Shown here in pieces: positions 21,506 to 55,233 of a stretch of DNA of 64,000 nt. The stretch lies in NCBI GenBank assembly GCA_002694685.1, contig NZMW01000017.1, positions 124,001 to 188,000 on the forward strand, given 5' to 3'. A program made the position numbers and the translations under genes. The notes under the pieces were generated by a model that saw only the letters and a list, made by a program, of their open reading frames with translations, did not search any database and had not been told where the DNA came from. Every line of letters begins with the position of its first letter. Positions within the stretch are counted from its first letter, which is position 1. Origin of the DNA: Balneola sp. (GTDB taxonomy: Bacteria > Bacteroidota > Rhodothermia > Balneolales > Balneolaceae).

Positions 21506-21560
21506 TTCTTAATTCTCCAAAATGTTTAAAAAGGTTTGTGCTTTAACTTTGCCCATCGAT

Positions 21561-23054: not shown

Positions 23055-23075
23055 TGTTTAAATTTTGAAAAAGGT

Positions 23076-27182: not shown

Positions 27183-28007
27183 TTAAAACCACATCCTTAC
27201 GCCTCCCACAACGCCCAAGGTGCTGACCTCACCACCTTCCAGACGGGCAAAGTCAGCGGTGCTACCAAGTTTTTGGTTCCACGATATACCCACATAAGGA
27301 GCAAACTCACGTCGGATCTCATACCTGAGTCTAAAACCAAGCTGAACATTATTAATACCAGAACCGACTCCCCATTCTTCAACTTCCTGCAAGGCCAAAT
27401 TAGTAGCGAAACGAGGTTGTGCAATCAATCTTTGTGTAATAAGCAAGTCTATTTCTCCTTCAAAAGTTGCTGATATATCTCCATCTTCACTAAGTTGAAG
27501 ACTTCCATCCACTTCGAATAAGTAGGGAGCAAGACCTTGAATTCCAACAACCGCAAATCCACGGGTATTATTTTCGATAGAGTTATAGGCAAGGTCATAT
27601 CTTAAACCGGCCTGAATGTCAAAATAGGAGGTTATTGCACGGCTATATAAACCCTGGAATTCCATTTCTCCTTCTTTTTCAGAAGTCAGCGCTTCGCCTT
27701 CAGCTTTATACCAAAATTTATTGATGTCTGTACCGAGATAACCCTGGACATCCCACACAATCGGACTTGGATCCCCAATTGAATAATATTCAAAGCGATC
27801 AGCTTGGAAAAAGAAGTAGGTTTTATTATCCGGCATGATATCATTACTAAATGGAGGGGCTTTTTGGGCAATTACCGAATTTGTCCCCAATAATAATGAA
27901 CACATAAAAAGAGCTAATGCTAATGTTGGTCGAATTTTTTTAATAGTTAAATTCATCAGAGTTAATAGTAATTCAACTTTTATTTTTATTCTTGTTACAA
28001 TATTCAT
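27183..28007 (-). CDS. copB: Copper resistance protein B (PcoB/CopB) outer-membrane barrel
   Basis: 274 residues. A signal peptide ends near VIAQ; a second start (MNLTIKK) 17 codons in may be the real one. The family pattern is visible: 'FFFQADRFEYYSIGDPSPIV', 'DVQGYLGTDINKFWYKAEGE', 'YFDIQAGLRYDLAYNSIENN', and the end 'SWNQKLGSTADFARLEGGEV'. CopB sits in the outer membrane and works with the multicopper oxidase. It overlaps the MCO gene by 4 bp (ATGA). The Met-rich N-terminal part of plasmid-borne CopB proteins is absent. Confidence 0.9.
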   Translation of the reverse strand: MNIVTRIKIKVELLLTLMNLTIKKIRPTLALALFMCSLLLGTNSVIAQKAPPFSNDIMPDNKTYFFFQADRFEYYSIGDPSPIVWDVQGYLGTDINKFWYKAEGEALTSEKEGEMEFQGLYSRAITSYFDIQAGLRYDLAYNSIENNTRGFAVVGIQGLAPYLFEVDGSLQLSEDGDISATFEGEIDLLITQRLIAQPRFATNLALQEVEEWGVGSGINNVQLGFRLRYEIRREFAPYVGISWNQKLGSTADFARLEGGEVSTLGVVGGVRMWF

Positions 28008-36282: not shown

Positions 36283-36327
36283 TAAATAATTCAACTAATA
36301 ATTAATTCAAACACAAAGGTGACTACT

Positions 36328-36807
36328 ATGAAACGGTTAACACTAATTTTATCAGCTCTTTTTCTTTTTACAAGTATCGGTTTTGCCCAACAGCAAAACA
36401 AAGATATGCAAATGAAAAAACAACAGATGCAGGAAATGATGCAGGATTCCACCATGCGCTCTATGATGATGGATCATATGGCACAAAACCCCGAAATGCG
36501 CAAGCAGATGATGCAAAAAATGGTGGGATCTGTAGGCATGGGTCAATCAGCCATGATGAAAAACATGAAGAATAATCCTGAAATGAAACAGCGCATGCAA
36601 AAACACATGGAGATGATGCAGTCTATGATGGACGGCAATATGGATCAGTCTAAAATGATGGACATGAAGAGCGATTCATCCATGATGAAGATGAATATGA
36701 TGTGCATGCAGATGATGATGCAGGGCGATATAATGGATCAAAAAGGCATGATGGATAAGGACGATAAGGGGTCTGGAAATGGAAATCACGAACAACATCA
36801 CAAGTAG
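36328..36807 (+). CDS. Exported Met-rich protein, likely Cu/Ag-binding
   Basis: About 159 residues from ATG 36328, which follows AAAGGTG at good spacing; an in-frame GTG at 36319 lies inside that ribosome site. A signal peptide ends near residue 20 (GFAQ). The mature protein is dominated by Met in MM or MxxM groups ('MQKMVGSVGMGQSAMMKNMK', 'SMMKMNMMCMQMMMQGD') with few aromatics. Met-rich periplasmic proteins bind Cu(I) or Ag(I) weakly and act as a sponge or carrier. No fold family is recognised. It is 45 bp after DUF302. Confidence 0.8.
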   Translation: MKRLTLILSALFLFTSIGFAQQQNKDMQMKKQQMQEMMQDSTMRSMMMDHMAQNPEMRKQMMQKMVGSVGMGQSAMMKNMKNNPEMKQRMQKHMEMMQSMMDGNMDQSKMMDMKSDSSMMKMNMMCMQMMMQGDIMDQKGMMDKDDKGSGNGNHEQHHK

Positions 36808-38796: not shown

Positions 38797-39831
38797 TTAT
38801 TTAAAATTGTTTTTGTTCGATTGCTTTTGGTAAACTTCATTCCAGCTCCAACCATTACTACGTAACAATCCATGCAATGAACTTCTGCGTTCATTCATTT
38901 CATAACTATTTGAAGACATGGCTTGATGCTCTTTTAATGGAACATTCCTGGATTTTAGGTATTCAATATCCAGCGGAAACCTATCGATTTCTTCCGGCAT
39001 TTGATGGTAATGACGGCGTGCTGTGTCCAAAAATTTGGTAATCGCGTCTCTGAGCGGTGCAATATCCTGTTCCCGCCATCTGTTTGGTTCAACATAATGA
39101 ATCAAAATTGTTATTGCTTCATCTACATTTACCAAATTGATGGATACTGATTCATCCCTTGCCGTACTGTAGAAATAATGCACAGCCGGGTGGGCATAGT
39201 GATTCTGGTTATGTTTATTGATCATCTCCCTGAGCTTGATTGAAAAATCTGGCAACATTATGAAATGCTCTTCTTCACAAGAATACAGATTGATGAGAAT
39301 TTCTTCAGGTGTATCTCCCATGTTTGCTATAAAAAGGCTGAGATTTCTTTTGTGGATCACCGCCGTGGTCAGGCTCATCAGATAAGTCATGGCGGTAGTT
39401 ATGAAAATAAAGCCGGCAAATGAAAAGGCGGCCATTATAATCTGCCACCCTTCGGAACCCGGTATATAGTCACCTACTCCCAGGGTGGAAAGGGTATATC
39501 CGCTTACATACAGCTTGGTAAGAACGCTTGCGGCAGATCCTGTGCCTGCTTCTACTATAGAGCGGGGATCGCTGACGAGCAGCAGGAAAAATCCGATCCA
39601 TAGAAGCCCAATCCACATTCCAAGTAGAAAAAGGATATGCGTTACCCCGGAGTAGCGCAACGCGTTTCGCCGGGGGATATATCTGTTTAAAAAAAGGAAA
39701 AGGGCCGAGAGGAACCTGCTCGTCAACCGTGACAGGTACCCCGCCCCGTTGAAGGAAAGCGTGGTATAGAAAAAGTCGTAAGCAATTACGACAAGAAGGA
39801 CAATACCCAAAATAAGATAAAATGCATGCAT
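38797..39831 (-). CDS. Two-TM potassium-channel-like protein with cytoplasmic tail
   Basis: 344 residues. A first helix at 3-22, another at about 64-88, then a pore region with the filter 'TLSTLGVGDYIPGSEGW' and a last helix (about 130-155). T-L-G-V-G-D-Y is a variant of the K+ filter T-V-G-Y-G-D. The C-terminal 180 residues are soluble, without an obvious RCK/TrkA domain. It lies 13 bp after nuoN and is cotranscribed with the complex I-like genes, an unusual partnership. Selectivity for K+ is inferred. Confidence 0.85.
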   Translation of the reverse strand: MHAFYLILGIVLLVVIAYDFFYTTLSFNGAGYLSRLTSRFLSALFLFLNRYIPRRNALRYSGVTHILFLLGMWIGLLWIGFFLLLVSDPRSIVEAGTGSAASVLTKLYVSGYTLSTLGVGDYIPGSEGWQIIMAAFSFAGFIFITTAMTYLMSLTTAVIHKRNLSLFIANMGDTPEEILINLYSCEEEHFIMLPDFSIKLREMINKHNQNHYAHPAVHYFYSTARDESVSINLVNVDEAITILIHYVEPNRWREQDIAPLRDAITKFLDTARRHYHQMPEEIDRFPLDIEYLKSRNVPLKEHQAMSSNSYEMNERRSSLHGLLRSNGWSWNEVYQKQSNKNNFK

Positions 39832-39844
39832 GCTTAGTCGATTT

Positions 39845-41206
39845 TTAGGTCAGAAACCATTGAACACCGATCCCCACAACTACCGTTAAGACAAATGTGC
39901 TTATCCATACGAAGGATGTTCCCGGAGCGTAAGTTCTGATTTGCCCATCTTCGGCTTCCTGAAAAAACATGGGTACCACAATCCGCATATAAACTGCAAG
40001 AGAAATTGCGCTGTTCAGGATGGCAACAACCGCCAGCCAGCTATATCCGGATTCTATGGCTGCCCCAAACAGTAGAAATTTGCCGGCAAAGCCGGCCAGG
40101 GGCGGCATCCCTACCAGGGAGAGCAGGAAAATGGTCATACCCACCGCCTGCCAGGGCCGGCGTTTTCCCATGCCTTTAAAATCGTCCAGCCGGGTGCCTT
40201 CGCCCAAAGTAATGGCAAAAGCGCCTGCGTTCATAAGCAGGTATGCTACCCCAAAAACCACCATTGAATCGATCGCAAGCGTACTTTGTCCCACTCCGAT
40301 TACTCCCAACAGATAATACCCTGACTGTGCAATAGTGGAGTAGGCCAGCAGCCGGATCACATTGTCCTGCCACAGCGCTACCACATTGCCAAAGGTCATG
40401 GACAGCGCGGCCAGCACGGCCAGGATCAACGGCCAGTCAACAAGGGAAACCGGAAGATCACGAACCACCTGCGCGAGTGCAAACAGGGCCCCTATCTTGG
40501 GAACTACCGACAGGTAGGCGGCTATGGAGACGGGTGCGCCCTCAAAAGTGTCGGGCGTCCAGAAATGGACGGGAAACAGGGAAGCCGCATAGCCGATTCC
40601 AATTACCAGGGTAATAAAGCCGAACATAACGGCATAAGAGGATAAGTCAGGATTGTTAATCCCGGAAATCAGCGTCGTTCCGGCAAGGCCCGCCCAGAAG
40701 GTTAGCCCGAAAAGCATGATGGCTCCGGCTACTGATCCGTAAATAAAGTACTTCATCGCTCCTTCGCTGGAAGGGTCGTTCCTGGGGTGAGCTGCCATGG
40801 CCATACCGGCAAGAGTACTAATAAGCAGGCCCAGTACAATGAACATGAGATCTCCGCTGCCCGCCAAAATCATGGCTCCCAAGGCTGAAAAGCCCATCAG
40901 GCTGTATATGGTGCCTTCGCGGGCCGAATCTTTCAGCTCCGATCGGCCCAGCAAAGCAAAAAGGATGGTTGCCGGCCCCAGAATGATGACGGCCCACAAG
41001 CTGAGTGCGTCAACACGGAAGGTAGTGGAAAAAGCTGTTGTGTCTGTCCCCAGCATATCTACGGCAACACCGGTGGCTGTGAGCATGCCAACCACCAAAG
41101 CCCATAGTGCAGCCCGGGGTAATCGGGCCATTTCCAGGCATAACACGATAACCGTGGTGGATAAAACAATAAGCTGTGGTGAAATATTCAGTAAATCAGT
41201 TGCCAT
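39845..41206 (-). CDS. nuoN: NuoN-like antiporter subunit of the complex I-like cluster
   Basis: 453 residues with about 14 hydrophobic segments. Landmarks: 'LFPVHFWTPDTFEGAPVSIA', 'VPKIGALFALAQVV' (Lys of the central relay), and 'GMPPLAGFAGKFLLFGAAIE' (C-terminal Lys). At the site usually 'xxIKRLxAYSSI' the protein has 'NVIRLLAYSTIAQSGYY', so one relay Lys is replaced. Length is near the usual 480. It is a proton/cation channel-like subunit and the last nuo gene, 5 bp after nuoM. Confidence 0.92.
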   Translation of the reverse strand: MATDLLNISPQLIVLSTTVIVLCLEMARLPRAALWALVVGMLTATGVAVDMLGTDTTAFSTTFRVDALSLWAVIILGPATILFALLGRSELKDSAREGTIYSLMGFSALGAMILAGSGDLMFIVLGLLISTLAGMAMAAHPRNDPSSEGAMKYFIYGSVAGAIMLFGLTFWAGLAGTTLISGINNPDLSSYAVMFGFITLVIGIGYAASLFPVHFWTPDTFEGAPVSIAAYLSVVPKIGALFALAQVVRDLPVSLVDWPLILAVLAALSMTFGNVVALWQDNVIRLLAYSTIAQSGYYLLGVIGVGQSTLAIDSMVVFGVAYLLMNAGAFAITLGEGTRLDDFKGMGKRRPWQAVGMTIFLLSLVGMPPLAGFAGKFLLFGAAIESGYSWLAVVAILNSAISLAVYMRIVVPMFFQEAEDGQIRTYAPGTSFVWISTFVLTVVVGIGVQWFLT

Positions 41207-41211
41207 CGTTA

Positions 41212-42690
41212 TTACAGTCCGAAGAAATTAGTTGTAGCATGAATCATCGAGAGCAGGGAATCGGGATATACTCCAATCAGTATGGTAGCTAATATCAAAG
41301 GAACAATAGCCCACAGCTCTCGGCTTCCCAAATCTTTAAGTCCGGTAAATCCTTCCGGCAAGGTACCTAAAAATACTTTTTGAATAGCCCTCAGGTACAG
41401 GGCTGTAGTAATCGGCAAGCCAATGATGATGATCCCGACGGCGACCGGGTACACATCAAAGCCGCCTAAAAAGATTTGAAACTCGGCAGGGAAATGAGCC
41501 AGCCCGGGCAGTCCCAGAGAAGCAAAGGCCGCGAGCATAAAAAGTCCGCTTAATATTGGATAGGTTTTTAGCAGACCGGTCATTTCGTTCATTTCCCGCG
41601 TACCAGTGCGATCCTGAAGAGCTCCTACCAGCAGGAAAAGCACCCCTGTAACCACACCGTGGCTTATCATTTGAAGTACCGCTCCGTCCAGGGCAATCAT
41701 TCCGGATGTGGTAGTGGTGACGGCTGCTATGGCCACACCAAATATCAGATACCCCATGTGGTTTACACTGGTGTAGGCCACCATCCGTTTGATGTCGGTT
41801 TGGGCCAAGGCTACGAAAGCCCCGTACAGCGCTGTAAAGACGGCAATGACGATGACGTAAGGTGCAAATTCACGAAATGCATCAGGCGTCATTTGCAATG
41901 GAAAGCGAATAAAACCATAGGTGCCCAGTTTCAGCAACACCCCCGCCAGGATGGCACTTCCGGCAGCAGGTGCTTCGGTGTGAGCCAAAGGAAGCCACGT
42001 ATGGAATGGGAAAAGCGGTGTTTTAATAGCAAAAGCGATAAATAATCCCCAGAACGTAAGCGTAGCTGCAAGTCCGGTTATGGTAGGATTTGTTATCAAC
42101 TGTTGTATGTCAAACGTATTGGTATCGGAAAAAAGATACAGCGCCAAAAACGCCAGCAGCAGAAACAAACTGCCTATCAGGGTATAGATAAAGAAAGTTA
42201 AAGCCGCCTTTTTGCGATGTTCGTGCCCCCATTTGGCTATGATAAAATACATGCCAACAAGAGTGATTTCAAAAAACACGTAAAAAAGGAAGAGGTCAAG
42301 CGAAAGGAATACCCCAAGACAGGCGGTCTCCAGCATCAAAACCAGTTGAATAAAGATATTGGCGCTATCCTTGATCTTTGCAGAAAAAATCAGCGAGGTC
42401 AGGAACAAAAATGCCGTCAACAGCACCAGGGGAAAGCTAATGCCGTCCACTCCCAACCGGTAAGCTATGCCTAAGGATGGTATCCAGCTGAGTTCTTCAA
42501 CTTGTGACAAACTGCTGCCTATACCCTGTATCCAGATCATAATAGCAGCCAACAGGGTGAGTGACGCGAAGGCTATCCCAATACCATAGGCGGTTTTGGT
42601 TTGTTTGGGGCGGAGTACCATAATGACAAGTGCCCCTATAACCGGCAAGAATGTAGTGATTGAGAGCAATGGTAATGATGAAAAATCCAT
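41212..42690 (-). CDS. nuoM: NuoM-like antiporter subunit of the complex I-like cluster
   Basis: 492 residues. The TM5 Glu is kept in 'FYVFFEITLVGMYFIIAKWG', the two relay Lys in 'FAIKTPLFPFHTWLPLAHTE' and 'GVLLKLGTYGFIRFPLQM', the interface motif in 'LAQTDIKRMVAYTSVNHMGY', and the C-terminal acidic site in 'LAHFPAEFQIFLGGF'. This is a complete set for ion transfer, so the antiporter module is not decayed even though the redox module is missing. 3 bp lie between nuoL and nuoM. Confidence 0.94.
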   Translation of the reverse strand: MDFSSLPLLSITTFLPVIGALVIMVLRPKQTKTAYGIGIAFASLTLLAAIMIWIQGIGSSLSQVEELSWIPSLGIAYRLGVDGISFPLVLLTAFLFLTSLIFSAKIKDSANIFIQLVLMLETACLGVFLSLDLFLFYVFFEITLVGMYFIIAKWGHEHRKKAALTFFIYTLIGSLFLLLAFLALYLFSDTNTFDIQQLITNPTITGLAATLTFWGLFIAFAIKTPLFPFHTWLPLAHTEAPAAGSAILAGVLLKLGTYGFIRFPLQMTPDAFREFAPYVIVIAVFTALYGAFVALAQTDIKRMVAYTSVNHMGYLIFGVAIAAVTTTTSGMIALDGAVLQMISHGVVTGVLFLLVGALQDRTGTREMNEMTGLLKTYPILSGLFMLAAFASLGLPGLAHFPAEFQIFLGGFDVYPVAVGIIIIGLPITTALYLRAIQKVFLGTLPEGFTGLKDLGSRELWAIVPLILATILIGVYPDSLLSMIHATTNFFGL

Positions 42691-42693
42691 GAT

Positions 42694-44580
42694 TTACAGA
42701 TAGGTTAGTGATAAAATAATTAAAGCTAAGATCATACCGTACACCGACCATGCTAGTTCGCGGTGAACCAGTCCCGATTGAATGTTCCGCCCGTATTGGC
42801 CCAGTCGCTGGATGGATGCCACCAAGCCGGCAATCCACTCCACAATGCCGCGATCGTCCGTTATTTGGGACCATTGGCCGATGTTCAGATTGAATGTCCC
42901 GATTTGGTCGATCACAAAAGCCATCGCACGGTCCGGCACATTGGCCAGCCAGCGCGCCAACATTAAAAACGCCTTGCCAATCTCAAAGACAGATTGAAGC
43001 AGAAATTGTTCGATCAGGTTTGCGCCGGTTGCCAGCATCTGAAACGGTTGCACGATAACATTGGTGTAGCCGCCTGCTACGGGATAGTTATCCCGGAAAA
43101 ACATCCACACCTGGGTTTTAAAGATGGGAGCGGTGGCAAACCAGCCTGCTGCCAAACCAAGAAAAGCAGCTCCAAGCCCGCTTATCATGGCAATGTTGTC
43201 TTTTGGAATGGAAAAACCTGACGTTTCAACCAAAGGATCCAGAAACAACCAGCCTGCAATAACAGCCGTTACCAGGGTTAGAAATCCGAGATGCATCCAA
43301 GGCAGTTTCTTTGGCTTTTCTTCCGGTTCGCTGTGTCCTTTCCATAAAATTCCGAATGCGCGGCCCATATAGATAGCAGTAAAAAAAGCTCCAATCAGCA
43401 CAGCGGAAAAGTACCATGAGGCCGGGTCGGCCTGCAGGCCTGCCGTCAGGATGGCATCCTTCGACCAAAAGCCGATTAATGGAGGGATCCCGGCCAGGGC
43501 CAGCCCGGACACGGCGAATCCTGAAAAAGCCAGTTTCAGTTTCTTTCCTGAGCCTTTGAGCTTTTCGTAATTTGTGGAATGCATTTCGTGCTGAAAGATT
43601 CCGGCTCCCAGGAACAAGCTGCTTTTCATGAAAGCGTGGGCAATCAGGTGGGCCAGGGCCGCGGCCGGATACCCGGCGCCAATAGCCAGCGCCATAAAAC
43701 CAAGCTGACTTGAGGTGGACGCGGCAAGCATACGTTTGATATCTTCGGAAAATATGGCAGTTGCACCGGCGAGCAGGATGGTTATTCCTCCCACTAAGCC
43801 GATCAAGAAAAGAGCGTCCGGCGGGAAAAGAGGGAAGGCTTTAAGCAGCAGAATAATACCTGCCGCCACCATTGTGGCCGAATGCAGCAGGGCCGAAACA
43901 GGTGTTGGGCCCGCCATGGCTGCCGAAAGCCAGCTCTGGAAAGGAACCTGTGCCGATTTACCCATTACCGCCAGCAGCAGAGCCAGGGTTCCCACTACAG
44001 AAACGCCCTGTACGGGTTCAGCTAAAATCTGGCTGGACCCGCCGGCAAGAATGATCACGAATACCCCGACATAGAGCCCGAGGTCGGCCACCCGGTTCAT
44101 AATAAACGCTTTGTTTGCGGCGTCACCAGCTTCTTTCTTCCAGTACCAGGTGCCGATCAGCAAATAGGAGGCAAAGCCCATAACCTCCCAGGCTATCACA
44201 AACAAGATCCAGTCTCCGGCTAACACCAACAACTGCATGGCCCCCATAAAAAGCGTTATGCCGCTCCAGAAACGGAGTTTTCCTTTTTCTTCTTTCATAT
44301 ACCCGATGGCATACACTAAAATGAAGGTGGTAATCACAGCGACAACCAGAGCAAGTACGGCCGCCATTTCTGTGGCTTCGAGGCGAAAGGGCATTCCCGG
44401 AAGCCCGGTAAATTGCAGTTGAGTAACAGCGCCGTTCAAAGCGGCCATAAAAAGCAGTATCGAACCGGCCAGAGAGCCTGCTGCCCCGGTTAAGGCTGCA
44501 TACCCTATTTTTTTCCGGGTTACGATAATCCAGGCACTTGCCGCCAGTGGAGCTAATATGGTAAGTAATATTGCTGCCAT
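42694..44580 (-). CDS. nuoL: NuoL-like antiporter subunit of the complex I-like cluster
   Basis: 628 residues, close to E. coli NuoL (613). Conserved ion-path sites: Glu in 'DWILFVIAWEVMGFASYLLI', Lys in 'MGKSAQVPFQSWLSAAMAGP', His/Lys region 'LLHSATMVAAGIILLLKAFP', 'SEDIKRMLAASTSSQLGFMA', and 'PLIGFWSKDAILTAGL'. The C-terminal part has enough length for the lateral helix that clamps NuoM and NuoN. It is thus expected to form the distal arm of an ion pump or antiporter. It lies 7 bp after nuoK. Confidence 0.94.
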   Translation of the reverse strand: MAAILLTILAPLAASAWIIVTRKKIGYAALTGAAGSLAGSILLFMAALNGAVTQLQFTGLPGMPFRLEATEMAAVLALVVAVITTFILVYAIGYMKEEKGKLRFWSGITLFMGAMQLLVLAGDWILFVIAWEVMGFASYLLIGTWYWKKEAGDAANKAFIMNRVADLGLYVGVFVIILAGGSSQILAEPVQGVSVVGTLALLLAVMGKSAQVPFQSWLSAAMAGPTPVSALLHSATMVAAGIILLLKAFPLFPPDALFLIGLVGGITILLAGATAIFSEDIKRMLAASTSSQLGFMALAIGAGYPAAALAHLIAHAFMKSSLFLGAGIFQHEMHSTNYEKLKGSGKKLKLAFSGFAVSGLALAGIPPLIGFWSKDAILTAGLQADPASWYFSAVLIGAFFTAIYMGRAFGILWKGHSEPEEKPKKLPWMHLGFLTLVTAVIAGWLFLDPLVETSGFSIPKDNIAMISGLGAAFLGLAAGWFATAPIFKTQVWMFFRDNYPVAGGYTNVIVQPFQMLATGANLIEQFLLQSVFEIGKAFLMLARWLANVPDRAMAFVIDQIGTFNLNIGQWSQITDDRGIVEWIAGLVASIQRLGQYGRNIQSGLVHRELAWSVYGMILALIILSLTYL

Positions 44581-44587
44581 ATAGGTA

Positions 44588-44896
44588 CTATCCTTTTAAT
44601 TCTGCTGATTCTTCCATTTCAACCGTTCCCGAGGTACGGAACCGCTGAGTGGCAATGGCAAAGCCGACGGCTCCTTCCAAAGCCATCACAGTCATGGCTA
44701 CCAGCACAAACATCTGCAAGGAGAAGGCGTCGGGATGAAGAAAGCGCCAAAAAGCTACCAGGTTGATCATGGCTGCTCCCAGCATCAGTTCAATTCCCAT
44801 CATGATCATTACCAAATTTGTCTGACTTAAGGCGCCGTAGAGCCCTATACCAAAAAGGACGGCGGCAATAATAAGTGCTGTAATTAATAGCTCCAT
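44588..44896 (-). CDS. nuoK: NuoK-like subunit of the complex I-like cluster
   Basis: 102 residues, three helices. Both membrane Glu residues of the proton path are kept: 'MMGIELMLGAAMINLVAFW' and 'VMALEGAVGFAIATQRF'. An acidic tail 'GTVEMEESAELKG' is unlike the usual short end. It lies between nuoJ and nuoL in the normal order. Confidence 0.93.
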   Translation of the reverse strand: MELLITALIIAAVLFGIGLYGALSQTNLVMIMMGIELMLGAAMINLVAFWRFLHPDAFSLQMFVLVAMTVMALEGAVGFAIATQRFRTSGTVEMEESAELKG

Positions 44897-44901
44897 AGTG
44901 T

Positions 44902-45420
44902 TTACTTCTCCACGCTGTTTTTAATTGACAAAGCGACTGCGATAGAGGCGATCATTCCGGTAAGAATGGTCACCCCGGCGGTTTCGAAGATCATCATCGA
45001 CCGCTTCAGAATTTCCATACCCAGCAGCCGGTTTTGCTCATGCGGCCCCGGAAACTGAGTAGCTATTGTACCCCAGTCGGTGGTAAGAGCGGCACCGACT
45101 ATCAATACGGTTACAATTACGCCCGCTGCTATGGAGATATTTTTCTGGTGATACATATCCATCTGTCCCAGCCCGCCAGGATCCATCATGTACATCATCA
45201 TAAAGATGGCCATGATACTCATTTCGGTTCCCATCATCATGATTTGCAGAACACCTAAAAACTCGGCTTCCATAACGAGAAATAATATGCCGATGGCCAC
45301 CATGGACGCCAGAAGTGAGAGAGCTGAGCGTACCATGGAGCTGGTCATGAAGACGCGCCACCCGAACCAGATGGCCACCAGGCCGAATATAATAAGTAAT
45401 ATGAGTTGTAGAGATATCAT
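44902..45420 (-). CDS. nuoJ: NuoJ-like subunit of the complex I-like cluster
   Basis: 172 residues, five helices. 'SMVRSALSLLASMVAIGILF' and 'MEAEFLGVLQIMMMGTEMSI' correspond to TM2-TM3 of NuoJ; the usual 'VGAIxVLFLF' segment is replaced by the Met-rich 'IMMMGTEMSIMAIFMMMYMM'. That Met clustering may be a chance of membrane helices or a soft-metal site. It overlaps nuoH by 4 bp. No nuoI gene lies between H and J, where it is normally found. Confidence 0.9.
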   Translation of the reverse strand: MISLQLILLIIFGLVAIWFGWRVFMTSSMVRSALSLLASMVAIGILFLVMEAEFLGVLQIMMMGTEMSIMAIFMMMYMMDPGGLGQMDMYHQKNISIAAGVIVTVLIVGAALTTDWGTIATQFPGPHEQNRLLGMEILKRSMMIFETAGVTILTGMIASIAVALSIKNSVEK

Positions 45421-46319
45421 AACAGCAAGACTACTCCGACTTGAAAAATGTTATAAAGAGCTAAAGGCACCCCGTACTTCCAGTTGTATTCCAACAGGTG
45501 GTCGTGCCGGATGCGCGGCATAAAACGGCCAATGGCAAAAAAGGAGGCCGCCACCAGCAGGGTCTTCAGAAAGGTCCAGGCAAAATCGGGCAGCCAGGGC
45601 CCCATCCATCCTCCCAGGTACAGCACCACTACCGCTGCCGATATGGTGAACACGAGGGTAAGCCGCCCCAGGCGAAACAGCAGCTTGCGGGCGCCGGTGA
45701 GATCAGCCCAGACTCCTCCTGCCAATTCTCCCTTGGCTACCGGCAGGTTGAAAGGAGGAAGAAAGGTAATAGCCAGCGTTGAAATATAGAATAAAATAAA
45801 GCCTACCGGCTGGTACAAGATGTTCCACAGCCCTTGTTGGGATTCCACGATATCGGTTAAAAACATCGATTCGGCACGCATCACCGTAGCCGTCAATGCC
45901 ATAACCACTGGCATAGAGTAGGCGATAAGCTGGGCCAGCGCACGCCACCCCCCTACCATGGCGTACACGCCGTTCACGGCCCATCCGACCATCAGTAGAG
46001 AAACCATGATGTACACCAGTGCCGCATTAATAAACAGGGCACCCGTTCCCAGGTCGATGATCACGCTGTCCCGGCCGAAGGGCAGAATAGAAATGGTGAG
46101 CAGTATCACTCCGATAAACAAAACCGGGGCAGTTTCAAAAAAGACCTTGTCGTGCTTCCGGGTTTTGATCTCCTCTTGGGCAAACAGCAGTAAAAATGAG
46201 CGCACGGGGCCGGCCCAGTTCACGGTCCCCGTCACCGACCAGCGTTCCATTACTGCTGCCACATAAACACCGCTCAAAAACAGGAGGGTAATTATAAAAA
46301 CGGTTAAAAAAGGAGTCAT
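45417..46319 (-). CDS. nuoH: NuoH-like subunit with an altered quinone-cavity region
   Basis: 300 residues, eight or nine helices. 'GWAVNGVYAMVGGWRALAQL' matches the NuoH signature, but the next 'ISYE' is 'IAYS', so the conserved Glu is lost. The first cytosolic loop, normally with QDRxGPNR, reads 'ERWSVTGTVNWAGPVRSF'. The 'FDLPEAExELVxGxxTEYSG' region is changed to 'PFNLPVAKGELAGGVWADL'. These are residues at the quinone tunnel and E-channel. The scaffold is intact but the quinone chemistry is probably not. Confidence 0.9.
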   Translation of the reverse strand: MTPFLTVFIITLLFLSGVYVAAVMERWSVTGTVNWAGPVRSFLLLFAQEEIKTRKHDKVFFETAPVLFIGVILLTISILPFGRDSVIIDLGTGALFINAALVYIMVSLLMVGWAVNGVYAMVGGWRALAQLIAYSMPVVMALTATVMRAESMFLTDIVESQQGLWNILYQPVGFILFYISTLAITFLPPFNLPVAKGELAGGVWADLTGARKLLFRLGRLTLVFTISAAVVVLYLGGWMGPWLPDFAWTFLKTLLVAASFFAIGRFMPRIRHDHLLEYNWKYGVPLALYNIFQVGVVLLL

Positions 46320-46331
46320 AGCTTGCGTCTG

Positions 46332-48596
46332 TTAATGATGAATTTCCCAGGGTGAAATGTCCAGTGAGGCTACGGCCGTCAGTGCATCGGCCAGCTCGTG
46401 CTGTTCGGTTACGTGTTGTATGATGTCCGCCAGCGCGGTCGATGGCGTGTTAAGCTGCATGTGAGCCAGTTTACCTTCATGGATATGAAATTTCAGCGTT
46501 ACGATACCGCGGGGGCTCTCGATGTGCGCAATACCATTTCCCATCCCGGTAGATGGTATGTCGATTTTTTGTGAAGATACACCACCGGAATCATTTCCCG
46601 CCTTGGCTATAAACCGAAGGCTTTGTTCCATTTCGTTCAGCCGTACCATCAGCCGGCTCCAAGCGTTGTTTCCGGCAGCGGTTACGGGAGTCCAGCCGGC
46701 GTGCTGATATACAGGTTCCTCTAAACGGTGATCATTTTCAATACCCGCCGCCCGTGCCACCGGGCCTGTGGTCTCATCCGGCAGCTGGCCGGAAACAGTA
46801 CCGGCATCCTGATCTTTTTCATCTCCGCTCCCATGGCAGTGATCGTGGCTATCATGACCCGCGTGGCCGCTGTGCTCATGGTGGTGATGTTCATCATGTT
46901 CTTCATGGCAGGAATGGGAGCCGTGTTGATGCGAGTGATCTTCGTGGCCGTGCCCTTCATTACCTCCGTGCCCTGAATGTTCATGATCCGAATGATCGTG
47001 TCCACTATGCTTTGAGTGATCATGCCCGCCATGCTCATGATGTTCGTGCCCCTTGTGTTCTTCGTGGCTATGACCTGCATGATGGTGTTCGTCACCCGAG
47101 TGATCTCCGTGGTTATGGCCGTGTCCGCTATGATCGTGGGCCTCATGCTCGTGACCCTGATTGTGATCTTCCATTTCCACCCGGTGTTTTCCGGCGGTGG
47201 ATAATTTTAATTTCAAATAGGGCATCTTTTTTATACGGCCGATAAATTCGGAGAGCCGGCTGGCATCTCCGGCCTCGTCTTGGAAACGGTGATAATGTTT
47301 TACAGCCTGATCCCGCATCCATTGGCTGCCCAGTGCTGTGCCAAAAACAGCCAGCCAGTTCAGATGACTGGTTATCCGCTCTTTTTCCAGCAGCACTGCC
47401 TCTGAAAGGGTAAGTGTGGAATTCGGCGTTTTACCGGAAAAGTTTACCAGCGCTTTTTGTGCCAGAAGCCGGTAGGTAACCTGCGCCATAGGATGGTCCG
47501 CCGCAAGATACTCCGGCAGGGACGCGGGGTCGTTCAGGACGGATGCCGGCAGGTTGTGTCCCAACAGGCCTTGGCTAGCCTCTGCTTTGACGACGGTATC
47601 TCCGTCCAGCTTCATGGAGAGGCGCAGCCCGCCCGGCAGGCCCGGGTGAAAGGGTCCAAACTGTACATCGCTCCACTCCATCGGCAGTCCGTCGGGACTG
47701 CGGGGCAGGTCTTTGGTCATGGCTATCATCGACATAAAGCCCGGGCCGTGGTCGTGCCCGTCATGTTCGTGATCGCCATGCTGAGGACCTCCGTGGTCAT
47801 GTCCTTCATGGCTATGTCCGTGCTCTTCGTGTTGAGAGTGATCATCCTCCTGGTGCTCCTCTCCATGGTTGTGTCCCTTGTGCTGATGCCCTTCATGCCC
47901 GTGATCATGTTCTCCATGATCATGATGTCGATGCCCTTCGTGTTCGCTATGTGAGTCGTGTTGATGAGCCTGGTGGTCATGCTTGTGCTTGTCCGTTTCA
48001 TCATGTTGAAGGCCGGAGTGATTATGTTCTTCGTGGCGATGCTCATCACCTGTATGTTCACTGTCCTTGTGCCCTTCATGACCGTGATCGTGCGACCCGT
48101 GGCCACCATGGCCATGCATATGGCCCTGCTGCTGACCGGCTTCTTCTATTTTGCTGACCAATGGTTCCGGTCGGTACGGCTCCGCCTCATCTGTCCACGA
48201 GTAACTTCTCAGGCATTCTCGGGCGGCAGGCATTGCGGTGTCAAGAAAATCTTTTTCCAGGGCAACGTGAACATCCGGGTGAGGAAGCGGGTCAAGATAT
48301 TCCGGCCCGGCCATAACCAGCACCCGGGGGCGCGGCATCTGTGCGTAAACGGTGGCCGCCCGTTCGGTCAGTTCCGCACTTAAATCTCCAACAACCAGCA
48401 GAACATTGGCCTCTTTGGGACTGTCTGCCAGCCGGGCTTCTCCGTGTAAAGGTTCAGATTGATACATGCGCAACAGGTCGGCACCCGGAACCGGAAATAT
48501 TACCAGCTCCTGTGAAGCGGCTTTTGCCAGCCATCGCCGCCAGAAATTCATGGTTCCTTTTCGTGCTCCGTATCTCATAGTCGTTTCCATTGGCAT
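46332..48596 (-). CDS. NuoB-NuoD fusion, without cluster cysteines, with two giant His-rich inserts
   Basis: 754 residues. Residues 60-130 resemble NuoB ('EANVLLVVGDLSAELTERAA', 'VYAQMPRPRVLVMAGPEY') but have none of the N2-cluster cysteines; the whole protein has only three Cys (128, 563, 587). Residues 305-475 resemble NuoD ('VQFGPFHPGLPGGLRLSMKL', 'LLEKERITSHLNWLAVFGTA') and 625-754 its C-terminus ('NGIAHIESPRGIVTLKFHI'). The HPxxHG quinone-site signature is HPGLPG. Residues 159-284 and 478-589 are His/Asp/Glu/Gly-rich, about 45 His each by hand count. A role in electron transfer is unlikely; binding of Zn, Cu or Ni, or buffering protons, is an inference. The start abuts the nuoA stop (TAAATG). 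Confidence 0.85.
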   Translation of the reverse strand: MPMETTMRYGARKGTMNFWRRWLAKAASQELVIFPVPGADLLRMYQSEPLHGEARLADSPKEANVLLVVGDLSAELTERAATVYAQMPRPRVLVMAGPEYLDPLPHPDVHVALEKDFLDTAMPAARECLRSYSWTDEAEPYRPEPLVSKIEEAGQQQGHMHGHGGHGSHDHGHEGHKDSEHTGDEHRHEEHNHSGLQHDETDKHKHDHQAHQHDSHSEHEGHRHHDHGEHDHGHEGHQHKGHNHGEEHQEDDHSQHEEHGHSHEGHDHGGPQHGDHEHDGHDHGPGFMSMIAMTKDLPRSPDGLPMEWSDVQFGPFHPGLPGGLRLSMKLDGDTVVKAEASQGLLGHNLPASVLNDPASLPEYLAADHPMAQVTYRLLAQKALVNFSGKTPNSTLTLSEAVLLEKERITSHLNWLAVFGTALGSQWMRDQAVKHYHRFQDEAGDASRLSEFIGRIKKMPYLKLKLSTAGKHRVEMEDHNQGHEHEAHDHSGHGHNHGDHSGDEHHHAGHSHEEHKGHEHHEHGGHDHSKHSGHDHSDHEHSGHGGNEGHGHEDHSHQHGSHSCHEEHDEHHHHEHSGHAGHDSHDHCHGSGDEKDQDAGTVSGQLPDETTGPVARAAGIENDHRLEEPVYQHAGWTPVTAAGNNAWSRLMVRLNEMEQSLRFIAKAGNDSGGVSSQKIDIPSTGMGNGIAHIESPRGIVTLKFHIHEGKLAHMQLNTPSTALADIIQHVTEQHELADALTAVASLDISPWEIHH

Positions 48597-48959
48597 TTAT
48601 TGGCGTTTGAGTCCGAGTTGAGTCCAGGTATAAATAAGTCCCAGAAATAAAATCATCAGAAAAACGCCCATGTCCAGCAGGGCCAGAATGCCTACTTCTC
48701 TGTAAACCACTGCCCAGGGGTACATGTAGGCCATCTCCATATCAAAGGCCAAAAAGAGCAGGGCATAGCCGTAGTAGTGTACATGATAACGCAGCCAGGC
48801 CGGTTTGGGCGCCAGGTTTCCGCTTTCGGCGGGGATGTCCTTGCCTGGCTCGTCCAGCGTTTGGCCCAGCGACTGCTTTATAAGATAAAGCATCCACACT
48901 AAACCGGCTGTTGTAATCCCCATGCCGAGCAGGAGTAGATATTGAGTTAAAGGAGCCAT
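48597..48959 (-). CDS. nuoA: NuoA-like subunit of the complex I-like cluster
   Basis: 120 residues, three helices. The loop 'IPAESGNLAPKPAWLRYHVH' corresponds to the NuoA 'YECG' loop with Cys replaced by Ser, and 'YYGYALLFLAFDMEMAYMYP' keeps the acidic TM2 motif. First gene of the core cluster. The His-rich fusion follows without a gap. Confidence 0.9.
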   Translation of the reverse strand: MAPLTQYLLLLGMGITTAGLVWMLYLIKQSLGQTLDEPGKDIPAESGNLAPKPAWLRYHVHYYGYALLFLAFDMEMAYMYPWAVVYREVGILALLDMGVFLMILFLGLIYTWTQLGLKRQ

Positions 48960-49023: not shown

Positions 49024-49212
49024 TCATTCAATAATTTCATATTCTGCCTCTTCCAATTCAGCAAATGCTGTATTTGGTTGATAATCAAAATTTCGCCTGC
49101 TGTATTTCGAGTATTGCCACATCTCAGAAACAGGATTTTTGAGTTTATTAAACCTGTAATATATAAAATACGAGAAAATGAATGTTAGTATAGACCAGAG
49201 TAAGGTTAACAT
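49024..49212 (-). CDS. Small single-helix membrane protein of unknown function
   Basis: 62 residues: a helix at 2-19 ('TLLWSILTFIFSYFIYYRF') and a polar tail 'NPVSEMWQYSKYSRRNFDYQ' ending acidic. There is no clear ribosome site. It lies between lgt and nuoA in the same direction, so it may be an accessory subunit of the membrane complex. No family is recognised. Confidence 0.5.
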   Translation of the reverse strand: MLTLLWSILTFIFSYFIYYRFNKLKNPVSEMWQYSKYSRRNFDYQPNTAFAELEEAEYEIIE

Positions 49213-49255
49213 ATCAGATCAGAGTTGTTTAAAAATAATCAGTGTTAAATTTATA

Positions 49256-50047
49256 TTACTGTGAAGGTTCAACTTTTAAACGCCTGTTTTGACGAAGTTT
49301 CGTAAAATACAGCCACAGGGCTGGTATTATCACTAATAAGCTGATAATCTGTGAGGTAGAAATTAAGCCGTCAAGATAAACGCCCCGGGGATCATTTCTA
49401 AAAATTTCTACAAAAGACCGTGCGACAGAATAAAGCATAATAAAAACCAGGAAGATTTCTCCTTTAAAACGCTGCTGTTTTTGCCACCAAAGCAAAATGC
49501 CAAATACTACCAATAGGACAAGCGTGGAATAGATTTGGGTGGGGTGCAGTGGGATACCCGTTGGGGCCATCGACATTGAATCAGTAAAGGTAACCGCCCA
49601 GGGAAGATCCGTCGGTTTGCCGAAACTGTCTCCCGAAAAGAAGCAGCCCAGTCGTCCAAAGGCGATGCCCAGCGCCAGGCCGGGCGCTGCCATATCGCTA
49701 ATTTGCCATAAGTCCAGATCATGTTTTCGTACATACCAAATCCCGGCTCCTAGTCCGAACAAGAAACCTCCATAGAACGTAAAGCCTCCATTCCAGAGCA
49801 TCAGAATTTTCAATGGATTTTGCAGGTACCACTGCAGGCTGCCATCGAACAGGATAGAGAAAAGTCGCGCACCAATAATGGCCCAGAGGACGACGATGAC
49901 AGCCAGATCCATTATTTTTTGAGGGTCGACGCGGTTTTTTATGGCCTGACGATAAAGCCACCATATTCCTATAAGAATGCCACCAGTGTGAAACAGGCTA
50001 ACCGTATGAATGGTAAACGGGCCGAGTTCAAAAAGAATGGGTTGCAT
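49256..50047 (-). CDS. lgt: Second prolipoprotein diacylglyceryl transferase-like protein
   Basis: 263 residues. Lgt features: 'GPFTIHTVSLFHTGGILIGI', 'IGARLFSILFDGSLQWYLQN', 'WNGGFTFYGGFLFGLGAGIW', and the signature region 'GIAFGRLGCFFSGDSFGKPT'. The last differs from the 'GRxGNFxNxE' norm (C-F-F-S-G-D), a change shared with Lgt-like proteins in metal islands and of unknown effect. It may lipidate island lipoproteins or act on another small substrate. 24 bp separate it from the upstream FAD oxidoreductase. Confidence 0.85.
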   Translation of the reverse strand: MQPILFELGPFTIHTVSLFHTGGILIGIWWLYRQAIKNRVDPQKIMDLAVIVVLWAIIGARLFSILFDGSLQWYLQNPLKILMLWNGGFTFYGGFLFGLGAGIWYVRKHDLDLWQISDMAAPGLALGIAFGRLGCFFSGDSFGKPTDLPWAVTFTDSMSMAPTGIPLHPTQIYSTLVLLVVFGILLWWQKQQRFKGEIFLVFIMLYSVARSFVEIFRNDPRGVYLDGLISTSQIISLLVIIPALWLYFTKLRQNRRLKVEPSQ

Positions 50048-50071
50048 AGTTTTTAAAAAATGAGGTTAATG

Positions 50072-51232
50072 TTAGCATTCTACTTCGGCATAGTCGTGCT
50101 CTCCATGCTTACACCATACGCATGAGCAGTTTTCGTGCATACACTGTTTGTCTTCCAGCCGGGTTTTGAAAGCCCGGTTGGCGACCGGAAAAACAATCTT
50201 TTTATACCAGCTTGGGTTATACTGAGTTCGGAGGGTAGGAATTATATCGTCCTTTTCTGCCAGACGGTCGAGCATAATGGTATATCCCAGGTCTTCCAAG
50301 CGGGTAAACAACCAGCGGTTGGCCAACGACACCTCCATTTTTGGGATGATATGCTCTTTGCACAAGTTAGGATAGGAACGATTCTCGATGATGCTTTGGG
50401 CCGCCAGATATCCAGAGTGCATGGCATAGCGCATGCCGAAGCCAAACAAGGCGTCTTGAAACCCGGCATTTTCTCCCACATAATAGATGCGGTTGTTTTT
50501 AACCAGCGTTTGATTTAGTGAGAAATTGACATAACCGCCAAAATATTTTGAATCCTGTATATCTATCATGATGTGCTTTTTCATTTCACCTAAAGCTTTT
50601 TCAAAATAATGGAGGGACTTGGGAAATTTTTCAAACAAACAAGTCGCAAATGTAGCTTTACCCTCATGTACCAATAAATAAGCATAACCATGTGGGGCAA
50701 TATCATCACCAAGGAAAGCCGCATAGTAATTTTTATGAGTTGTAGAGAAAATGATTCCTTTCGCAATTGCATCACCGCCTTTTGGGCCAGTGCTTATTAT
50801 TACTCTGCCGTTTTCAGGCACCTTTGTTATTTTTGTTCCCCATTCAAAATGAACTCCTGCTTCTTCTGCTTGCCGCCTCAACCCCTGATCCAGGCTCCAT
50901 TCGTTAGAACCTCGTTCAATTAAATAAAAAAGGGGTCGTGACATGCTATAATGGTATTTTTGACCAGAAGGATTAAAAAACTCAACATTTTCGAGGGACT
51001 CAAAGAGATAATTCACTGAAATACCTATACGGCTCAAAAATTCTTGAGTATCTTCTTCGGTTGACCAGTTTTCGATACCCTGGAAATCATGGTTAAAGCG
51101 TTTACCGACCTCATAGTACATTTCATAAACGGTAACCGGAAATCCGGCTTTGGCTAAATTGATAGCAGCTACTAATCCACCAGGGCCGGCTCCAATGATA
51201 TGTATTTGTTCCTTTTTCATACCAACTTCCAA
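50072..51232 (-). CDS. FAD-dependent oxidoreductase, geranylgeranyl-reductase-like, with Cys-rich tail
   Basis: 386 residues. FAD motif 'IHIIGAGPGGLVAAINLAKA' at about residues 10-30, then 'GTKITKVPENGRVIISTGP' and the third FAD motif 'NRIYYVGENAGFQDALFGFG'. It is close to the GGR/tryptophan-halogenase-like flavin group. The last 25 residues, 'QCMHENCSCVWCKHGEHDYA', hold four Cys and two His, a possible metal site not typical for the family. Substrate unknown. It could be the only redox enzyme linked to the complex I-like cluster downstream. Confidence 0.82.
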   Translation of the reverse strand: MEVGMKKEQIHIIGAGPGGLVAAINLAKAGFPVTVYEMYYEVGKRFNHDFQGIENWSTEEDTQEFLSRIGISVNYLFESLENVEFFNPSGQKYHYSMSRPLFYLIERGSNEWSLDQGLRRQAEEAGVHFEWGTKITKVPENGRVIISTGPKGGDAIAKGIIFSTTHKNYYAAFLGDDIAPHGYAYLLVHEGKATFATCLFEKFPKSLHYFEKALGEMKKHIMIDIQDSKYFGGYVNFSLNQTLVKNNRIYYVGENAGFQDALFGFGMRYAMHSGYLAAQSIIENRSYPNLCKEHIIPKMEVSLANRWLFTRLEDLGYTIMLDRLAEKDDIIPTLRTQYNPSWYKKIVFPVANRAFKTRLEDKQCMHENCSCVWCKHGEHDYAEVEC

Positions 51233-51337
51233 TAGGATTTAAAAAATATTTGAATAGTCCTTAATGTTTTAAGAACAAAATGATTTGAAATGCAATTAGC
51301 CGTATCAGGACCAAATGCATAGGGGTTTTTCGGTGCA

Positions 51338-51517
51338 TTAATTAGAAAAACTAAAGGATCTATGACCAGAAATGTAATAGTCAGGTTCTCTTAAGAAAGT
51401 ATCCTCGCAAGACGGACAACAGAAGAATAGCTCCATGCCCTCATATTCTATATGAGGGGAAAGGACAGGGTTATCTATAGTTAAACCGCTTACAGGACAG
51501 ATTGCATGATGTGACAT
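51338..51517 (-). CDS. 59-residue YHS/TRASH-like metal-binding protein
   Basis: Read from ATG 51517, which follows a strong ribosome site GGGAGG, to TAA at 51338. The protein 'MSHHAICPVSGLTIDNP', '...YEGMELFFCCPSCEDTF', 'LREPDYYI' has the YHS/TRASH pattern: one Cys near the start and C-C-x-x-C later. It is a sister of the two genes upstream and of the N-terminal domain of the Cu-ATPase. It likely binds Cu(I) and hands it on in the cytoplasm. Confidence 0.8.
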   Translation of the reverse strand: MSHHAICPVSGLTIDNPVLSPHIEYEGMELFFCCPSCEDTFLREPDYYISGHRSFSFSN

Positions 51518-51540
51518 AAGTACCTCCCAATGTTTTTACT

Positions 51541-51735
51541 TTAGATAGAATAATGTTGAATTTCCTGAATCTTCTTTTCGGCAAACTTAATCAGATGCCG
51601 GTCAAAAATTTCTTTACAGGTAGTAGTACAGAACGCCCATGTATTGCCATTGACACTACTTTTGGGAGAGCTTTGAGGGTTTATTACCTCTTTTCCGGTT
51701 ACTACACACTCTTTGTTTAGATTAAGATGTTCCAT
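51541..51735 (-). CDS. Small YHS/TRASH-like protein
   Basis: 64 residues from ATG 51735 (MEHLNLNKE); the frame is open back to 51777, but the extra residues have no match. 'KECVVTGKEVINPQSSP' and 'VNGNTWAFCTTTCKEIFDRH' follow the spacing of the neighbouring YHS-like proteins, with single Cys at each site (C-V-V-T-G, F-C-T-T-T-C). A metal-binding or chaperone role is inferred. Confidence 0.72.
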   Translation of the reverse strand: MEHLNLNKECVVTGKEVINPQSSPKSSVNGNTWAFCTTTCKEIFDRHLIKFAEKKIQEIQHYSI

Positions 51736-51816
51736 TTTGCAAAAATTAAATCCCTGCCCAAAGATTACCGACCTCATAGATCCAAAGGCAGGGGTGTTAT
51801 TTATTGAATATTGTAC

Positions 51817-51996
51817 TTAGTGATGATGATGGTGGCTACCGTTGCTTCCTATAAAATCGGCGGGATTTTCATCAAATGTTGTTTTGCAATTTTCGCAGCA
51901 GAAGTAATAGGTTGTTCCCTTGTACTCACTGCTGGGGGCGCTTGTTGGGTCTTCGATTTCGTGTCCCATTACAGGGCAGATGTTTTGTGCTTTCAT
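51817..51996 (-). CDS. Small YHS-domain protein with poly-His end
   Basis: 59 residues from ATG 51996, which is preceded at 8 bp by GGAGG lying inside a possible earlier ATG (52008). 'ICPVMGHEIEDPTSAPSSEY', 'TTYYFCCENCKTTFDENPAD' is a full YHS domain, and the protein ends in five His, a natural His tail suited to metal binding. It lies 35 bp after the cupredoxin gene in the same direction. Confidence 0.85.
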   Translation of the reverse strand: MKAQNICPVMGHEIEDPTSAPSSEYKGTTYYFCCENCKTTFDENPADFIGSNGSHHHHH

Positions 51997-52031
51997 GGTA
52001 TCCTCCATGTTATTGGTTGTGATTTATAGAT

Positions 52032-55133: not shown

Positions 55134-55196
55134 TGGTTTCTCCGTTATAGGTTTTAATTCGACTTTTTCATCAAGCCTCTTTTTCAAGTTTCTACC

Positions 55197-55233
55197 CAAT
55201 GATAATACCTACTACCTTAAGACAACCTTAAAT
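55197..55233 (-). promoter_or_regulatory. Island promoter P6 for the Cu-ATPase run
   Basis: CTTAAGA at 55216 and CTTAAAT at 55227 (plus strand), 11 bp apart with CAAC between. After 11 bp comes TATCATTG (55204-55197), a good -7 element. It is 83 bp upstream of ATG 55133, the same distance as in P2, P5, P7 and P8, and this supports that start. Confidence 0.72.

Follow-up and report, generated by a model that had tools for sequence, protein, structure and literature searches.

The gene cluster described here is an eight-gene operon of complex I-like subunits in a 64,000-nucleotide stretch of a Balneola sp. genome (contig NZMW01000017.1, positions 124,001 to 188,000; hereafter the window). The closest described systems are respiratory complex I, the Mrp Na+/H+ antiporters, and the membrane-bound hydrogenase and sulfur reductase together with the energy-converting hydrogenase-related Ehr complexes; NiFe-binding CxxC motifs mark the large subunit of group 4 NiFe hydrogenases. 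Mrp antiporters put the same antiporter subunits to a non-redox use and carry a carboxylate in transmembrane helix 3 (TM3) of their NuoJ-like part, and we know of no A, B, or D subunits in Mrp. The passages of Steiner and Sazanov (2020, PMC7419157) on the Mrp cation path propose that it runs through the J/K region, give Mrp no H-like subunit, and locate the cation-site Glu706 of the NuoJ-like part at the place of Tyr59. The nearest precedent comes from Marinobacter atlanticus CP1, where nuoADHJKL-like genes and a hydrogenase-III-like gene lie inside a copper operon and are co-expressed; M and N were reported missing, and the proposed role was energy from copper redox or the replenishing of redox cofactors (passages on this operon in Eddie et al. 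2021, PMC8233155). Those passages mention neither a loss of redox sites nor a methionine ladder, metal domains, or broad distribution. Compared by description, without alignment, that operon is very likely of the same family as ours, although the Marinobacter loci fetched whole in this work do have M and N. A full-text literature search, thin on subscription papers and preprints and judged by titles and the openings of abstracts, returned no other report of the family.

The window lies on contig C17 of the 3.95-Mb host genome (G000). Eight minus-strand genes follow one another in the order A-BD-H-J-K-L-M-N, with intergenic gaps of 0-12 bp; this is the arrangement given by the first-pass annotation of the DNA, to which a 4-bp overlap of H and J is added. 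The range assigned there to the cluster, 38797-48959, does hold the whole operon but also takes in an ion-channel-like gene past its end. The features are as follows.

48597-48959, minus strand: NuoA-like subunit (PF00507, 87.7 bits), with Asp79 and Glu81 (E. coli numbering) kept in a DMEM motif.
46332-48596, minus strand: BD fusion, with a NuoB-like part (about aa 1-150), a His-rich linker (about aa 155-285), and FMSM plus a NuoD-like domain (aa 287-754) that contains a second His-rich insert (about aa 467-600).
45417-46319, minus strand: NuoH-like subunit (PF00146, 195.8 bits), without the QNRYGPNR loop and without an E157 equivalent.
44902-45420, minus strand: NuoJ-like subunit of 172 aa (PF00499, 62 bits), with a Met-rich TM3, the gating Tyr changed to Met, and a new Glu66.
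44588-44896, minus strand: NuoK-like subunit (PF00420, 65.6 bits), both Glu retained.
42694-44580, minus strand: NuoL-like antiporter subunit of 628 aa (PF00361, 201.4 bits), core relay residues retained.
41212-42690, minus strand: NuoM-like antiporter subunit (PF00361, 240.5 bits), core relay residues retained.
39845-41206, minus strand: NuoN-like antiporter subunit (PF00361, 166.6 bits), K247 and K395 retained.
38797-39831, minus strand: accessory two-transmembrane ion-channel-like protein, 13 bp past N (PF07885, 21.6 bits, just below the cut-off of 22.5).

The window's A, H, J, K, L, M, and N all exceed their Pfam cut-offs; the D part of BD is weak yet passing (58.9 bits against a cut-off of 24), and the B part falls below (13.8 against 27 bits). 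Among the NCBIfam matches listed (for L, M, and N, the best 25), A, BD, H, J, L, and N pass no model cut-off, while M passes TIGR01972 and K passes one model.

Judged from its sequence, the operon very probably encodes a non-redox, copper-linked, complex I-like machine, a new variant within the complex I/Mrp superfamily with the look of an ion-translocating complex I arm. It shares with complex I the homologous subunits A, B (as a fragment), D, H, J, K, L, M, and N, the NuoD fold, and the core relays of L, M, K, and A. Unlike complex I, it has no E, F, G, C, or I in the cluster, no N2 ligands, no quinone motif, no H loop and no E157, adds metal domains in BD and a Met-rich TM3 in J, and has partly lost the relay residues of N. 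It resembles Mrp in the presumed non-redox use of antiporter subunits and, with an offset of three residues, in a TM3 carboxylate; however, MrpA fuses a J-like C-terminus, whereas the operon has separate L and J, and it holds H, A, and a putatively metal-binding BD besides. MrpE, MrpF, and MrpG are not among the Pfam-named open reading frames (ORFs) of the window, with no profile search aimed at them. The best PDB match of the BD profile is the MbhL chain of membrane-bound hydrogenase, but the operon has no NiFe or Fe-S Cys columns, and its A, J, K, L, M, and N are complex I-like and accompanied by metal domains. The operon lacks defining features of complex I and of group 4 hydrogenases and, in the MrpA-J fusion, one of Mrp.

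The first-pass annotation had proposed a search for BD fusions and their neighbors; searches made with H placed the family in four phyla, Balneolota, Bacteroidota, Pseudomonadota, and Actinomycetota, on plasmids and islands. With an eight-row H alignment, a pattern scan covering 84,980 species genomes returned 139 stretches encoding a relative, the best 80 of which were kept. The window, L036, and five plasmid loci (L054-L058) bring the total to 87 distinct loci; seven further plasmid loci (L198-L204) lie outside this set. Five loci from duplicate places (L035, L037-L040), genes cut at contig ends, and short or split ORFs were dropped before counting. Fodinibius, Gracilimonas, Spirosoma, Hymenobacter, Marinobacter, Alcanivorax, Halomonas, Brevundimonas, Afipia, and Mesorhizobium are among the genera found in the genome scan. 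When tblastn was run with H on 72,556 plasmid records, 12 records matched at 48-63% identity, the next hit being an ordinary NuoH at 36%. All 12 bear the operon (Rubrobacter tropicus, R. marinus, four Sulfitobacter, Roseovarius, three Paracoccus, Thioclava, and Nitratireductor); the annotation splits BD of Sulfitobacter dubius and H of Rubrobacter marinus into two pieces each. Within the host's own phylum the family is rare, with 3 of 394 genomes positive at E 1e-60. Complete operons, with all eight genes on a single strand and ordered A-BD-H-J-K-L-M-N, make up 62 of the 87 loci; the other 25 are incomplete with the order unchanged, mostly at stretch or contig ends, and a few have single genes split.

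In a NuoH tree of 24 family and 40 canonical sequences, the family occupies one side of a branch with a Shimodaira-Hasegawa-like approximate likelihood ratio (SH-aLRT) support of 100, although the program warns of long branches. Ratios of nonsynonymous to synonymous substitution rates (dN/dS) are 0.015-0.19 between the window and L060 and 0.05-0.34 between the window and L059. Decay into a pseudo-operon was rejected on the low dN/dS of these two pairs (0.015-0.34) and the conserved lengths and order; by sequence, the operon is a maintained machine under strong purifying selection and not a relic. Separately, a different divergent nuo cluster occurs in several genomes of the host's family and order (L041-L044, L046, and L047); its NuoD-like protein lies in a frame of about 385-400 aa, and the cluster has a NuoH-tree branch of its own.

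The sites of redox chemistry are missing throughout. As first annotated, NuoE, F, G, C, and I have no genes in the window cluster, and tblastn of B, C, E, F, G, and I over the 87 loci, many with short flanks, met only separate canonical genes flanking two of them (L102 and L109). Loss of ligand residues, for which a check had also been proposed at the outset, was seen in the family rows examined. No B-part column has Cys in half of the 49 BD rows (reduced from 54 for the structure alignment), which upholds the claimed absence of the N2 cysteines; four of the 49 hold 6-12 Cys there, probably where ORF starts were called too far upstream. The HPxxHG quinone-site motif of NuoD reads HPGLPG in the window, as had been noticed, and FPGLP in most relatives; HPG[LM]P or FPGLP stands at the hairpin in 69 of 72 BD proteins, with the search pattern unmatched in three (L079, L080, and L134). 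Since the D part has a single Cys column (37 of 49 rows, lacking in the window), there is no conserved CxxC of the NiFe type. In NuoH, the position of E. coli E157 is Ala or Ser in 87 of 87 rows and the QNRYGPNR loop is deleted in all eight rows aligned; the reported loss of the conserved Glu and loop thus stands for E157, but the Glu aligned with E36 is retained in the eight-row alignment, its gap in the 87-row alignment being an artefact.

These losses bear on two readings in which electrons would still flow. The first, in which a complex I or group 4 hydrogenase of the ordinary kind has diverged and receives its electron-input subunits in trans, could draw on the canonical nuo genes of the host and on those in the flanks of the two Marinobacter loci. 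It is highly improbable: the N2 ligands and quinone motif are missing from the subunits themselves, the family is its own clade in the NuoH tree, and the canonical genes downstream of the operon in Marinobacter (17-21 kb in L102, 16-21 kb in L109) bring their own nuoA, B, and C. For the same host, a role as the membrane arm of its own complex I was rejected because canonical nuo genes are present separately, A-H on contig C1 and J, K, and L on C13; its canonical I, M, and N did not turn up in the fetched stretches, beyond which no search was made. The second reading, a pump that would move ions outward on the energy of Cu(I) being oxidized, or Cu(II) reduced, at BD, was raised as a possibility for Marinobacter, where the genes are expressed with copper genes (passages of Eddie et al. 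2021, PMC8233155). The rows examined have neither N2 cysteines nor a quinone motif and so offer no visible path or acceptor for electrons. Moreover, methionine ligands favor Cu(I) and suit transport or storage more than fast redox cycling, and we regard such a pump as distinctly improbable.

In contrast to the redox sites, the core pumping sites of L, M, K, and A are kept, a pattern in which the first-pass proposal of selection on ion transport but not on redox finds support, together with the strong purifying selection. The residues below are those with proton-relay roles in E. coli. NuoL keeps E144, K229, K342, and K399 in 76 of 76 rows, and NuoM keeps E144 and K234 in 75 of 75 and K265 and E407 in 74 of 75; the relays of L and M had been called intact, which is true of these core residues but not of M E108 (0/75). 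Both Glu of NuoK persist as annotated, E36 in 85 of 85 rows and E72 as 82 Glu and 3 Asp among 85. D79 and E81 of NuoA are present in 70 of 70. For NuoN, in which one Lys had been reported missing, K247 and K395 occur in 74 of 74 rows and K217, the residue changed in the window, is Lys in 65 of 74; here the losses proved larger than first described, as set out below.

The BD fusion appears to have exchanged its catalytic equipment for metal-binding elements. A pattern search found heavy-metal-binding motifs of the CPMHPE...CPKCGM type, in one to five copies, in the B-D linker of 64 of 72 BD proteins; seven of the eight without them are Balneolota proteins with His-rich linkers, and one is a Hymenobacter protein with a Met-rich linker. 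The Pfam HMBD domain scored above cut-off in 8 of 10 BD proteins scanned, and BD of the plasmid relatives is annotated as a heavy metal-binding domain-containing protein; metal binding by BD is read from these domains and motifs. FMSM stands directly ahead of the old D quinone hairpin in 72 of 72 proteins, and Met288, Met290, Asp302, Met306, Phe313-Pro315, Pro318, Gly319, and Pro321 (window numbering) are invariant in the 49 rows. By alignment, few parts of BD are as well conserved as this former catalytic site, which now bears methionines. The second His-rich insert (aa 467-600) is shared by the window and its nearest kin but not by Fodinibius salsisoli (L061) or F. sediminis (L063).

For the D part, the predicted fold is that of NuoD. 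A profile of 11 BD proteins matched MbhJ and NuoB chains with its B part (E 3.5e-7 and weaker) and MbhL/NuoD chains with its D part, the top PDB sequence match being MbhL (6cfw_L, E 8.5e-25). The predicted structure of a relative's BD (556 aa, mean predicted local distance difference test score, pLDDT, 81.6) superposed its D part on solved NuoD with Z 36.5 and a root-mean-square deviation (rmsd) of 2.0 over 313 residues. That of the window BD (mean pLDDT 68.4) gave a D-fold match with Z 33.0 and rmsd 2.6 over 314 residues; both of its His-rich stretches were modeled at pLDDT below 50, and the fold searches aligned mainly the D part, with the B part and linker barely covered. The window BD has no TM-like segment and is therefore read as soluble.

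The most conspicuous gain in the membrane part is a ladder of methionines in NuoJ, whose median Met content is 8.9% in the family against 3.6% in 48 canonical J proteins. In most rows printed, TM3 reads close to LQIMMM[AG]TEMS[IV]MAIFM[VM]M[FY]MMDPGG; Met61, 62, 63, and 67 and Glu66 each occur in 85 of 86 rows, the remaining row having a gap. Eleven columns, spanning TM3 and the following loop (J61-J89 in the window), are Met in at least 95% of the 86 family rows and in under 10% of the 48 canonical ones, and one of them replaces the gating Tyr59, which canonical rows keep as Tyr. Elsewhere, gained Met columns number two in A (M74 and M76), three in H, one each in K and M, three in N (one of them the start Met), and none in L. 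Among conserved columns this makes 17 of 268 in A, H, J, and K against 4 of 453 in L, M, and N (Fisher 4e-5), or 17 of 694 against 4 of 1573 residues by length. At a threshold of 80%, an earlier count found 16 of 100 columns in J and 8 of 73 in K; L, M, and N together had 29 of 784, from which neither A (5 of 85) nor H (7 of 165) differed significantly.

A ladder at this point would also fit a copper-gated ion pathway, in which Cu(I) on BD and J switches a flow of H+ (or K+) through L, M, and N and so resets membrane potential or pH, with no copper crossing the membrane. The Met cluster sits exactly at the complex I gate helix, the metal domains are on a soluble arm above a proton arm whose core relays are kept, and in Balneolota the ion-channel-like gene follows N. 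However, eleven 95% Met positions (J61-J89) exceed what a switch needs, and the channel gene, next to N at 7 of the 61 loci whose flank reaches 5 kb or more, is confined to Balneolota among the loci seen and was not found at the other 54. We consider gating without copper transport unlikely.

The metal tie suggested at first reading is borne out by the surroundings of the operon and is copper-like. A two-component pair and a cupredoxin also lie around the operon in the window, with the following context features.

52428-55199, minus strand: Cu-type P-type ATPase with YHS and two HMA domains, upstream of the operon.
27183-29809, minus strand: CopB and multicopper oxidase.
18362-24356, minus strand: CusA, CusB, and outer-membrane efflux genes.
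15455-16630, plus strand: phage-type integrase near the edge of the copper genes.

Across the family, 61 loci have a flank of 5 kb or more, and BLAST found a core copper gene at 32 of them. Copper genes adjoin 22 of 38 genome loci with at least 8 kb of flank but none of 20 control windows; these span 20 kb and come from 8 host genomes, at sites chosen by round numbers (an rpoB search served only to obtain contig coordinates for the controls). Because the probes were limited to proteins of the window and three plasmids, 22/38 is a lower bound of uncertain depth. In the plasmid stretches fetched, copper or heavy-metal genes accompany 10 of the 12 loci, Paracoccus aerodenitrificans having only a heavy-metal P-type ATPase; the stretches of Thioclava and Paracoccus sediminicola contain no copper or heavy-metal genes.

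The same machine might instead handle Ag, Zn, Ni, Co, or Cd. HMBD is named for heavy metals in general, HMBD and His-rich linkers bind several metals, and His-rich stretches prefer Ni, Zn, or Cu(II). Met ladders and FMSM, on the other hand, favor Cu(I) or Ag(I), and the neighbors are CopB, multicopper oxidase, a CsoR-like protein, CusA, and the Cu ATPase, so that another metal is improbable.

The HMBD domains, J ladder, FMSM motif, and plasmid spread had not been seen by the first-pass annotation, and they change its ion pump tied to metal stress into a presumed Cu(I)-handling machine, probably paid for by the proton gradient. We tentatively propose, as the likeliest mechanism, that the product of the operon exchanges Cu(I) for H+, an antiporter built on the framework of complex I. 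In this scheme, soluble BD would capture metal through its HMBD or His/Met-rich linkers and present Cu(I) at the invariant Met motif by the former quinone/NiFe hairpin. Cu(I) would then enter the chamber formed by D, H, and A, move along a Met-lined path, chiefly in J, with the TM3 Glu one turn from the Mrp cation-site Glu, and exit to the periplasm, while inward protons through L, M, and N would pay for export. Assembly as one complex, copper as the metal, and the path, coupling, and direction are what we infer here. Still more tentative is the full picture of a complex I architecture turned into a proton-driven Cu(I) exporter and spread on plasmids and islands across four phyla, with the quinone chamber as Cu(I) entry, the J gate helix as Met ladder, and metal domains at the place of the N2 part.

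Several observations weigh against this copper exporter. Two loci are broken inside the operon: Afipia birgiae L090 has no called K or L, and Pseudogemmobacter bohemicus L106 has no M or N and BD in two ORFs. The equivalents of E133, K295, and H305 in N are gone in 74 of 74 rows, and the TM5 Glu belongs to the Mrp coupling site. Taken without J, the Met gain of A, H, and K is weak (6 of 202 conserved columns), so the signal is mainly that of J, and the canonical rows used for comparison are mainly those of the host's phylum grouping plus E. coli. In the profile alignment, J Glu66 falls three residues after the Tyr59/Glu706 place and not on it, and the parallel with the Mrp cation-site Glu is therefore graded as suggestive. 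Mrp has no H-like subunit and is not known to have A, B, or D, so their retention here requires the assumption of an entry path. A crude hydropathy scan placed a TM-like segment in 19 of 72 BD ORFs, probably in part because of over-long ORF starts. With the limited probes, 16 of the 38 loci have no copper gene in the flank, and the copper island of the window already holds a Cu ATPase and CusA. No copper-responsive operator stands out upstream of A: the CueR and CopR patterns occur at 0 of 68 loci, the CsoR pattern at one of the 68, where shuffles would give 4.75, and an alternative CopR form also at one, against an expectation of 0.15.

Some further features of the locus and its relatives were recorded. 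Between the window and L036, of the same genus, dS is 0 in K and L and 0.011 in A but 0.95 in BD and 0.83 in H, and because of this contrast the BD-H block (45417-48596) has probably been swapped by recombination. A similar mosaic is seen between Alcanivorax L127 and L095, where dS is 1.07 in N against 0.09-0.35 in the other genes. The A, K, and L proteins are 100% identical between the window and L062 (G083), from a genome placed in another genus, which would indicate recent transfer, or possibly mis-binning, as the L062 genome is an 81% complete draft. The window also encodes a small, probably secreted, extremely Met-rich protein (36319-36807, plus strand), possibly a periplasmic copper sponge, and, near the copper genes, an NhaA-type Na+/H+ antiporter (58069-59427, minus strand). 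The segment between the Cu ATPase/cupredoxin and A (49024-52008, minus strand) encodes Lgt and an FAD oxidoreductase, each of them present at 7 of 61 family loci with the window counted, as well as small proteins that contain Cys and look YHS-like by eye, one of them ending in five His. An anti-phage function was rejected, PADLOC giving no match for BD or the channel protein.

How events in the quinone chamber are coupled to the distant proton pumps is a long-standing open question in complex I. A homologue that keeps the chamber subunits, the gate helix, and the pumps without visible electron transfer, seemingly using a bound metal instead, would separate coupling from redox chemistry. The operon is annotated under ordinary NADH-quinone oxidoreductase names, and genome-based predictions of respiration can therefore be misled where it is present. 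For the bacteria that carry it, it would be a new class of copper-resistance machine travelling on plasmids.

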